Assembly: GCF_014653945.1 (NCBI RefSeq)
Contig: NZ_BNAU01000007.1
Span: 124,001-188,000, forward strand
Source of the DNA: Amycolatopsis deserti
GTDB taxonomy: Bacteria > Actinomycetota > Actinomycetes > Mycobacteriales > Pseudonocardiaceae
Direction of reading: 5' to 3'
DNA: 64,000 nt
The notes below the pieces were generated by a model that worked only from the letters and a program-made list of their open reading frames with translations, was not told the DNA's origin and made no database searches. Position 1 is the stretch's first letter. Every line of letters begins with the position of its first letter. Shown here piece after piece: positions 3,972 to 18,352 of the stretch. The translations under genes and the position numbers were made by a program.

Positions 3972-5579
3972 CTATCCGCGCAGGCTCTTGTGCACCAAGG
4001 CGTCGCAGAGGGCGAGCCAGCTCGCCTCCACGATGCTGCCGTGCACGCCCACCGTCGTCCACTCCTGGTCGCCGTCGCTGGACTTCAGCAGTACCCGGGT
4101 GACCGCGTCGCTGCCCGGGTGGCTGGGCAGGATGCGCACCTTGTAGTCGGCCAGCTCGACACTGTCCAACCAGGACAGGAACGGGGACAGCGCCTTCCGC
4201 AGCGCCTCGTCCAGCGCGTGCACCGGGCCGTTGCCCTCGGCGGTGGCGATCACCCGCTCCCCCGCCACGTGCACCTTCACCGTCGCCTCCGAGATCACCT
4301 CGCCGTCGCCGCGGTGGTCCAGCACCACGCGGTAGGACTCGAGCGTGAACGGCGGCTCGACCGGGCCGTCGACCTCCTTGCGCAGCAGCAGTTCCAGCGA
4401 CGCGTCGGCGGCCTCGAACGACCAGCCCCCGGCCTCCAGCTCCTTCACCTTCGTCACCACGCTCGTGACCGCGTCCGGCCGGCCGGCAAGGTCCACCCCG
4501 AGCTCACGTCCCTTGAGCTCCAGGCTGGCCCTGCCGGCCATCTCGGTGACCAGGACCCGCATGTCGTTGCCGACGGAAGACGGATCGATGTGGTTGTACA
4601 ACAACGGATCCACCTTGATCGCGCTCGCGTGCAGCCCCGCCTTGTGGGCGAAGGCCGACGACCCGACGTAGGCCTGGTGGGTGTCGGGGGCGATGTTCGC
4701 GATTTCGGCAAGGGCATGGGAGACGCGGGTCAGCTCGGCCGCGGCCCCGGTCGGGAGCACGTCCATGCCGAGCTTGGCCACGAGGTTTCCCGTCACGGCG
4801 AACAGGTCGGCGTTGCCGGCCCGCTCCCCGTACCCATTCGCGGTGCACTGCACGTGCGTCGCGCCGGCCTGGACCGCCGCGATGCTGTTGGCCACGGCGC
4901 AGGACGTGTCGTCCTGGCAGTGGATGCCGAGCCGGAACCCGGTGCGCGCGGCGACTTCCCGCACGGTGTCGGCGATCCCGAGCGGCAGCTGGCCGCCGTT
5001 GGTGTCGCACAGCACGACGACGTCGGCGCCCGCGGTGTAGCCGGCCTCCAGCACGCGCAGGGCGGTGTCCGGGTCGAACGCGTAGCCGTCGAAGAAGTGC
5101 TCGGCGTCGAGGAAGACGCGACGGCCCTCCCCCACCAGGAACGACACCGTGTCGGCCACCATCGCGCAGGCCTCGTCGACGTCGACGCGCAGCGCGCGCT
5201 CGATGTGCCGCCGGTCGGACTTCGCCACCAGCGTCACCACCGGCGCCCGCGAATCGAGCAGGGCCCGCACCTGGGCGTCCTCCGATGCCTTCGTGCCGGC
5301 CTTGCGGGTCGATCCGAACGCGACCAGCGCCGCGTGCTTGAGGATCAACTCCCCGTCCGCGGCGCGGGCGAAGAACTCGGTGTCCTTCGGCAGCGCGCCC
5401 GGCCAGCCGCCCTCGATGAAACCCACACCCAGCTCGTCCAGCAGGCGTGCGACGGCGAGCTTGTCCGCCACCGAATAGGAGATGCCTTCGCGCTGGGCGC
5501 CGTCCCGCAACGTCGTGTCGTACAGGTGGAAGTCGTCACCGAGCGGCAATCCGGCTGGCTCCGTGCGGGTCACGGTCAT
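3972..5579 (-). CDS. cimA: (R)-citramalate synthase
   Basis: Condenses acetyl-CoA with pyruvate to citramalate, the first step of the threonine-independent route to 2-oxobutyrate and isoleucine. About 535 residues. It has the DRE-TIM signature DTTLRDGAQREG at residues 21-32, the metal-binding HCQDDTSCAVANS segment, and a C-terminal LeuA-type allosteric domain. The DTTLRDGAQ opening and 500-plus length fit the CimA branch rather than LeuA or homocitrate synthase. The three consecutive Ile codons in its leader peptide (5668-5712) independently point to isoleucine as end product. ATG at 5579 is chosen; an in-frame TTG at 5585 is also possible. leuB, whose product can carry the pathway onward, lies directly upstream. 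Confidence 0.9.
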   Translation of the reverse strand: MTVTRTEPAGLPLGDDFHLYDTTLRDGAQREGISYSVADKLAVARLLDELGVGFIEGGWPGALPKDTEFFARAADGELILKHAALVAFGSTRKAGTKASEDAQVRALLDSRAPVVTLVAKSDRRHIERALRVDVDEACAMVADTVSFLVGEGRRVFLDAEHFFDGYAFDPDTALRVLEAGYTAGADVVVLCDTNGGQLPLGIADTVREVAARTGFRLGIHCQDDTSCAVANSIAAVQAGATHVQCTANGYGERAGNADLFAVTGNLVAKLGMDVLPTGAAAELTRVSHALAEIANIAPDTHQAYVGSSAFAHKAGLHASAIKVDPLLYNHIDPSSVGNDMRVLVTEMAGRASLELKGRELGVDLAGRPDAVTSVVTKVKELEAGGWSFEAADASLELLLRKEVDGPVEPPFTLESYRVVLDHRGDGEVISEATVKVHVAGERVIATAEGNGPVHALDEALRKALSPFLSWLDSVELADYKVRILPSHPGSDAVTRVLLKSSDGDQEWTTVGVHGSIVEASWLALCDALVHKSLRG

Positions 5580-5612
5580 CTCCAATGCGTGGTGGGAGGC
5601 TTCACGGGCAAC

Positions 5613-5640
5613 AAAAAAACCTCCCGCGGATGCGAGAGGT
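5613..5640 (-). terminator. Intrinsic terminator in the cimA leader (attenuator)
   Basis: On the minus strand ACCTCTCGC (5640-5632) pairs with GCGGGAGGT (5627-5619) around an ATCC loop, giving a 9-bp stem with one G-T wobble. Seven T residues follow at 5619-5613. It lies between the leader peptide and cimA, 34 bases before the ATG, so it must be read through for cimA to be expressed. That placement is the signature of an attenuator rather than a gene-end terminator. Confidence 0.8.
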
Positions 5641-5642
5641 CT

Positions 5643-5680
5643 GCGCGCCAGGTGTCCGATGCGGACACTACCCGGCGCGC
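5643..5680 (-). promoter_or_regulatory. Leader stem-loop overlapping the end of the cimA leader peptide
   Basis: GCGCGCC at 5680-5674, inside the last leader codons, pairs with GGCGCGC at 5649-5643. GTGTCCG (5668-5662) and CGGACAC (5658-5652) form an inner hairpin beginning at the leader stop codon. The structure ends two bases before the terminator. A ribosome finishing the leader would cover its left arm, so it is a candidate pause or control stem; the switch mechanism itself is inferred. Confidence 0.6.
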
Positions 5681-5712
5681 CTGCCGATAATGATCACGGC
5701 GAAAGAAGCCAT
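5668..5712 (-). CDS. Isoleucine-rich leader peptide of the cimA attenuator
   Basis: A 14-residue open frame, MASFAVIIIGRRAG, ending in TAG at 5670-5668. Residues 6-9 are Val-Ile-Ile-Ile. There is no Shine-Dalgarno; the CATGAT -10 box ends six bases before the ATG, so the transcript probably begins at the A of ATG and is translated leaderless. It is followed by a stem-loop and an intrinsic terminator before cimA. A ribosome short of Ile-tRNA would stall inside the Ile run and could let transcription through. The frame is short, so the case rests on the arrangement as a whole. Confidence 0.75.
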   Translation of the reverse strand: MASFAVIIIGRRAG

Positions 5713-5718
5713 GAGCGC

Positions 5719-5748
5719 ATCATGCCACAACGGTGCGTGAAAGGGCAA
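5719..5748 (-). promoter_or_regulatory. Promoter of the cimA leader/attenuator transcript
   Basis: TTGCCC at 5748-5743 and CATGAT at 5724-5719 are separated by 18 bases. The start point expected 6-7 bases downstream coincides with the leader-peptide ATG at 5712. Confidence 0.55.
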
Positions 5749-5756
5749 CGAACGCG

Positions 5757-5792
5757 GCGGAGGCCACCCCCGGGATCGGGGATGGCCTCCGC
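5757..5792 (-). terminator. Hairpin downstream of leuB
   Basis: GCGGAGGCCA (5757-5766) and TGGCCTCCGC (5783-5792) form a perfect 10-bp stem closed by a C-rich/G-rich loop. It sits between the leuB stop and the cimA promoter. There is no T-run, which is common for actinobacterial terminators. It would separate leuB transcription from cimA. Confidence 0.6.
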
Positions 5793-5807
5793 GGCGGGAC
5801 GAAACGA

Positions 5808-18167: not shown

Positions 18168-18234
18168 CAGTTCTGCCTCGTGGGTCTCGTCGGGCTTCTC
18201 GTCAGGTGGTCGGGTCTGGCAAGGCGTGGGCAAC

Positions 18235-18271
18235 AAAAAACCCCCGCCGACCTTGGTAGGTCGCACGAGGG
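18235..18271 (-). terminator. Intrinsic terminator in the ilvB leader (attenuator)
   Basis: CGACCT (18263-18258) and AGGTCG (18253-18248) form the upper stem over an ACCA loop. CCCTCG (18271-18266) and CGGGGG (18246-18241) extend it below a small internal loop. Six T residues follow at 18240-18235. It lies 67 bases before the ilvB ATG and after the leader peptide, so it must be bypassed for ilvBNC expression. Confidence 0.82.
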
Positions 18272-18272
18272 T

Positions 18273-18321
18273 CGCGCGTCGACGCAGGCGGGCTCGATCG
18301 GTCCCTACGCGTCGACGCGCG
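18273..18321 (-). promoter_or_regulatory. 13-bp paired arms in the ilvB leader
   Basis: CGCGCGTCGACGC at 18321-18309, within the last leader-peptide codons, is perfectly complementary to GCGTCGACGCGCG at 18285-18273. The right arm ends one base before the terminator stem. The stretch around the leader stop codon (GCGTAGGG, 18310-18303) can also pair with the terminator's left arm through AGGG:CCCT and GCG:CGC (shifted), a possible antiterminator. Which fold wins should depend on ribosome position; this is inferred. Confidence 0.6.
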
Positions 18322-18352
18322 GGAAAAGTACGAGGCCAATCTGCGGTGTCAC
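18305..18352 (-). CDS. Branched-chain-amino-acid leader peptide of ilvBNC
   Basis: A 15-residue frame from GTG 18352 to TAG 18307-18305 with sequence [15 protein letters not shown]. Ile5, Leu7, Val8, Leu9 and Val13 cover all three branched-chain amino acids, matching what IlvBNC makes. There is no Shine-Dalgarno, and the -10 box ends about eight bases before the GTG, so it is probably translated leaderless. Stem-loop arms and an intrinsic terminator follow before ilvB. Attenuation of ilvBNC by a leader peptide is established in Corynebacterium glutamicum; the assignment here is by arrangement. Confidence 0.78.

Follow-up and report, generated by a model that had tools for sequence, protein, structure and literature searches.

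Upstream of cimA in Amycolatopsis deserti, a short open reading frame with three consecutive isoleucine codons stands in front of a stem-loop and an intrinsic terminator. This raises the question of whether isoleucine supply decides if transcription continues into the gene and, if so, how a ribosome on the small frame could control the terminator behind it. We address this in a window of 64,000 nt (assembly GCF_014653945.1, contig NZ_BNAU01000007.1, positions 124,001–188,000, forward-strand numbering), which is the whole stretch of DNA analysed, and in related loci from other genomes. Our reading, held with considerable confidence, is that this region is a transcription attenuator, leaderless and worked by the ribosome, through which cimA expression follows the charging of isoleucyl-tRNA. 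Many related bacteria have this arrangement too, and the cimA leader is thus very likely to be a real supply-sensing switch.

An earlier note on this DNA had placed a promoter, a small frame, a stem-loop and a terminator with seven T before cimA, and each of these parts sits where it was placed (Table 1). It had also preferred citramalate synthase over LeuA for the downstream product; this assignment is confirmed, as the protein matches TIGR00977 at 580.9 bits (cut-off 450) and leuA models score it under their own cut-offs. The start codon of cimA is most likely the GTG in Table 1, which has a GGAG ahead of it and a position common to relatives. The candidate promoter is weak, agreeing with a strict sigma-70 consensus at 8 of 12 positions, and its CATGAT lies 6 nt from the leader ATG; an automatic promoter scan did not report it, and its sole promoter-like call was on the opposite strand. 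The terminator scan, on the other hand, made one call, with 0.3 expected in shuffles, and this call is P2 of the cimA leader. Between the leader ATG and cimA, the RNA has a folding energy of −64.3 kcal/mol (z −5.3), a value equalled in 0 of 200 shuffles. Searches against Rfam gave no match at the gathering threshold across the 64-kb window and, in a permissive scan of 5550–5800, sub-threshold matches only.

Table 1. Features of the cimA leader and related elements in the window
Feature	Position	Strand	Details
cimA, citramalate synthase	3972–5573	−	predicted start GTG 5573; ORF listed as 3972–5585
Intrinsic terminator P2 (predicted)	5613–5642	−	hairpin 5642–5617; T7 5619–5613; flush with P1
Stem-loop P1	5643–5680	−	5680–5672 pairs with 5651–5643; 5′ arm within leader frame; covariation
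Leader frame MASFAVIIIGRRAG and stop	5668–5712	−	ATG 5712–5710; TAG 5670–5668; without Shine-Dalgarno; ATG at expected transcription start
Sensor codons ATC ATT ATC	5686–5694	−	−14, −11, −8 relative to P1
Promoter-like site	5719–5748	−	TTGCCC 5748–5743; 18-nt spacer; CATGAT 5724–5719
ilvB version of the chassis	18231–18352	−	TTGACA 18389–18384; TAACGT 18365–18360; GTG 18352; frame; terminator

We retrieved 571 relatives and compared the best 80, which by their titles belong nearly all to the window's family and mostly to Amycolatopsis and related genera; the parts of the leader are conserved among them. The frame, P1, the terminator and the T-run are present in all 80 cimA loci. Every leader has at least two Ile codons, 69 of the 80 have Ile-Ile-Ile, and in the remaining 11 an Ile pair is flanked by Val, Leu or, in one case, Arg. 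At the middle sensor position (−11), 77 of 80 loci were counted as ATT, and L065 joins them after re-reading, giving 78; this codon is used for none of the 108 isoleucines across five genes of the window. A hexamer of the form xAxxxT or xTxxxT lies 6–8 nt ahead of an in-frame start in all 80 relatives. Counted without any frame-based choice rule but anchored on the same Ile codons, 81 of the starts 6–8 nt behind such a −10-like hexamer share the reading frame of these codons and 13 do not, with at least one in-frame start per locus; among all upstream ATG and GTG codons the background is 179 of 422 in frame. The Ile run, the terminator and the spacing between −10 element and start, whose conservation the earlier note had made the test of its reading, are therefore conserved. 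Sequence conservation is high across the Ile codons, P1, P2 and the T-run and drops outside them. P1 and P2 also covary: 9 of their 18 base pairs have changed on both sides, compared with a shuffled mean of 4.5 and with none of 500 shuffles reaching as high. Alignment A1 of the cimA leaders holds 53 of 68 distinct sequences (13 duplicate loci dropped). One leader of the set comes from a genome labelled Rhodococcus rhodnii NRRL B-16535 (L051); it is close to two Kibdelosporangium leaders (L055, L057), and the label may thus be wrong.

The absence of a ribosome-binding site is conserved as well. When both starts are examined over windows of one length and under one spacing rule, a Shine-Dalgarno core 3–10 nt before the start was found at 3 of 80 leaders and at 77 of 80 cimA start codons. 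In 45-nt windows, Shine-Dalgarno matches of at least 5 nt occur at 2 of 80 leaders, fewer than the approximately 12 expected from shuffles, and at 73 of 80 cimA starts, above the shuffled level. The earlier note had thought a leader peptide with no ribosome site unusual, but this is normal for such leaders: in S. lividans, leaderless transcription is reported for several leader peptides, among them IlvL (MRTRILVLGKRVG; PMC8079986), and work on C. glutamicum likewise takes the ilvBNC leader to be leaderless (PMC11857589).

The same chassis is not confined to cimA. A covariance model (R1) trained on 53 cimA leaders of the window's family only matches 194 of 298 genomes of the window's order. The downstream genes of 28 of 29 matches were read (one match within the window's family, L098, was excluded), representing 15 genomes outside that family and one inside; 15 matches stand before cimA, 12 before ilvB and 1 before an amino-acid dehydrogenase gene. 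A model trained on one family's cimA leaders thus also recovers ilvB leaders. A second model (R2), built from 49 cimA and ilvB leaders (alignment A2), matches 292 of 394 genomes of the window's class, in 117 of 138 genera, and among 29 of 32 matches in 12 genomes whose downstream genes were read (one locus, L180, was too short and two matches came without a locus) we find 11 cimA, 12 ilvB, 5 leuS and 1 ilvA-like gene. The leuS leaders were not contained in its training set. Downstream genes were assigned by motif (DTTLRDG, FGIPGG) and some by profile scan; two of the leuS calls (L170, L178) fall under the curated cut-off, their proteins being cut at the end of the locus. The codons near −14, −11 and −8 are Ile in cimA leaders, mostly Leu, Val or Ile in ilvB leaders and Leu in leuS leaders, so the identity of the sensor codons changes with the downstream gene. 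The window itself carries the ilvB version less than 13 kb from the cimA leader; it scores 37.1 bits (E 1.5e-9) against R2, in whose training set it is included. One matched locus (L166) encodes MRTRILVLGKRVG, identical to the S. lividans IlvL peptide.

Two single matches extend the range of downstream genes. In Prauserella shujinwangii (genome G251, locus L136), an Ile-type leader at 1501–1595 encoding MSLGLIIIDGAG and a stop precedes an ORF at 1631–2731 that is called an amino-acid dehydrogenase at 345 bits with NF035922, below its cut-off of 600; enzymes of this class are more often catabolic. A class-level match with a single Ile codon (ATT), at 1501–1586 of locus L163, precedes an ORF at 1632–2882 that resembles ilvA, a threonine ammonia-lyase gene, below curated cut-offs. 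Threonine ammonia-lyase represents the other route to isoleucine.

The genomes that lack the element are also informative. The window's family is represented by 54 genomes; by a count of the matches listed, R1 finds the element in 50, and in the four negative ones no CimA was detected at E ≤ 1e-100. Of four further R1-negative genomes of the order, two are without CimA, and in the other two (L182, L183) cimA lies almost directly behind leuB, with no leader. The element thus seems absent where cimA is joined to leuB, and appears to go with a separately transcribed cimA.

From the sequence we infer the start of transcription, the dependence on Ile-tRNA, stalling, termination and induction, which would be connected as follows. 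Transcription would begin at or beside the leader start codon, so that the ribosome would bind the bare 5′ end. When isoleucine is sufficient, the ribosome would reach the stop codon and cover the 5′ arm of P1; with P1 blocked, P2 would form and transcription would end ahead of cimA. When isoleucine is short, the ribosome would stall on ATC-ATT-ATC with its front edge just 5′ of P1, P1 would fold, and RNA polymerase would read through, making P1 the antiterminator. The geometry of the leader agrees with this scheme. A ribosome covers 12 nt past the first base of its A site, as known from E. coli toeprinting, and the first Ile codon lies 14 nt ahead of P1, so a ribosome stalled there would end just before P1, whereas with the same footprint a ribosome at the stop codon covers the 5′ arm. 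In occlusion folds, P1 is formed at 98, 76, 37 and 0% (mean of 68 distinct leaders) with the A site at −14, −11, −8 and the stop codon, respectively. Outside the window's family the TAG mostly stands directly 5′ of P1 (TA/GCGC; 15 of 15 order-level cimA leaders), while within the family the frame usually continues through the P1 arm (ending in xRAG and the stop); the two layouts follow the same logic. A leader of Kutzneria sp. CA-103260 (L075) ends early, as VALHTVIIIS and a stop, with its TAG just 5′ of P1; this is the layout of the other families, and the other leaders retrieved from the window's family run through P1.

The more difficult question is how P1 would prevent termination. In trp-type attenuation, stalling lets an antiterminator that shares bases with the terminator exclude it by pairing. 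Such a device would have the same genetic logic and the same kind of control codons, and its requirement of an intrinsic terminator before the structural gene agrees with the predicted P2. For C. glutamicum ilvBNC, hairpins that overlap have been proposed and backed by mutations (PMC11857589), and the hairpins of M. tuberculosis ilvB1 are described as excluding each other (PMC13236596). Here, however, P2 is formed at 97–100% at every ribosome position in equilibrium folds of the 68 leaders, with or without P1; P1 thus does not remove P2 by pairing. Furthermore, P1 and P2 adjoin without shared bases in all 96 folded leaders: with pairs of the U-tract counted, 82 leaders have no gap and 14 a gap of 1 nt, and among 29 class-level loci the gap is 0–1 nt in 28, the remaining one not being called (with the core terminator pairs alone it is 1–2 nt). 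Equilibrium folding therefore shows neither the shared bases nor the mutual exclusion. The 5′ arm of P2 is less variable than its 3′ partner, but no conserved alternative partner of this arm was seen by eye in A1 or A2. In the window, the 3′ arm of P1 can by eye be paired weakly with the loop side of P2; since other families lack this pairing, it was not retained. Taken together, we regard trp-type exclusion as unlikely, at perhaps one chance among several. The interpretation of the earlier note, that cimA is tuned by Ile-tRNA charging, is supported, but the step from stalling to read-through as a plain swap of base-sharing hairpins is not, since the terminator folds at every ribosome position.

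Explanations that dispense with attenuation fare less well. Terminators between genes are common, and leuB ends just upstream of the leader (5808), so P2 could be the ordinary terminator of leuB with a small frame behind it by chance. Yet the frame, the codon choice, the promoter spacing and P1 are all conserved, and the same chassis stands before ilvB and leuS; this comparative conservation contradicts a chance terminator, and the explanation retains hardly any weight. It is slightly more plausible, but still improbable, that the conserved terminator and frame act on cimA translation or mRNA decay rather than on termination. Leaderless poly-cysteine frames of mycobacteria do regulate downstream genes in a manner that a review describes as translational (PMC9031893). 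The Shine-Dalgarno core that cimA has of its own in 77 of 80 loci and the terminator with its T-run in 80 of 80 loci argue against this, the latter being superfluous in a purely translational device.

Our preferred scheme remains attenuation in which, as a hypothesis suggested by the flush spacing, P1 would block the terminator as an abutting hairpin and not through shared pairs. P1 would fold first, flush on the base of P2 and with the ribosome against it, and P2 would then probably fail to complete its final pairs within the polymerase. Such adjacency also occurs elsewhere: of 64 other terminators in the retrieved DNA, homologous sites among them, 23 have a helix of 7 bp or more lying 0–1 nt upstream; it is its constancy that is the point. 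Two observations are not accounted for by the flush hairpins alone: the GCGC of both P1 arms is near-invariant (48–49 of 49 leaders, cimA and ilvB versions together), which exceeds what base pairing requires, and the two arms of P2 differ in variability. We put forward only tentatively, as somewhat short of an even chance, the full proposal of a class-wide chassis in which sensor codons are swapped per gene and a flush P1 antiterminates in the exit channel without base-pair competition.

The leader can be placed among the branched-chain attenuators of actinobacteria. Leaderless examples before ilvB and leuS are known (PMC1262725, PMC8079986), and we found no description of a cimA attenuator in the open-licence literature; the main text of PMC8079986 has 0 occurrences of 'cima' and 'citramalate'. 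The cimA leader thus joins this group, with which it has in common a frame with codons matching the pathway, a predicted start at the expected transcription start without Shine-Dalgarno, and P1 followed at once by a terminator and U-run, under one covariance model across genes. The survey of Seliverstov et al. (2005; PMC1262725) reports no conserved structures beyond the Trp, Cys and Leu pathways and ileS T-boxes. A close likeness is to S. lividans ilvBHC (PMC8079986, PMC1262725), where a leaderless frame with branched-chain codons, a stem and an intrinsic terminator precede a biosynthetic gene, and where IlvL ends on basic residues plus Gly (GKRVG, compared with GRRAG in the cimA leader, each before the stop); IlvL, however, serves ilvB and has Ile, Leu and Val codons, whereas the window's leader serves cimA with Ile only.

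M. tuberculosis ilvB1 (PMC13236596) likewise has branched-chain codons including GUA, an early terminated transcript and a terminator, and the same logic of stalling with read-through and completion with termination is proposed there with support from codon replacement: changing LVVI to AAAA abolishes induction. Its leader is 166 nt, and its frame, as described, is thus not at the 5′ end; unlike P1 and P2, its antiterminator and terminator are said to exclude one another. In S. coelicolor ilvBNC, substitution of the regulatory codons was without effect in a study cited by Seliverstov et al. (PMC1262725), which counts against our reading. The three-hairpin 'fast' attenuator of C. glutamicum ilvBNC (PMC11857589; ilvB-II motif, PMC10272879) is a related arrangement, but two of its hairpins overlap by a boundary GCC, whereas the cimA hairpins do not, and an additional anti-antiterminator is proposed there. 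Streptomyces leuS leaders (PMC1262725, PMC8079986) are matched by R2 and carry Leu codons, but they sense Leu before a tRNA synthetase gene, and Seliverstov et al. describe them as a classical attenuator with an antiterminator. The mycobacterial poly-cysteine frames (Canestrari et al. 2020, as cited in PMC9031893) are also short, leaderless and amino-acid-sensing; they read cysteine, however, and have no conserved terminator hairpin according to Seliverstov et al. (PMC1262725). The LEU element of leuA from the same survey is a pseudoknot with a base stem formed between the run of Leu codons and the Shine-Dalgarno of leuA, no terminator being described for it.

The gene for the enzyme that opens the citramalate route to isoleucine thus joins those under leaderless attenuators. 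The conserved rare ATT agrees with theoretical work in which control codons of low usage render attenuation hypersensitive (Elf and Ehrenberg 2005; PMC1183508). One chassis with different sensor codons occurs across many actinobacteria, among them families with many antibiotic producers, and its cimA, ilvB and leuS versions provide natural paired switches for asking how a ribosome may control a terminator with which it does not compete by base pairing.
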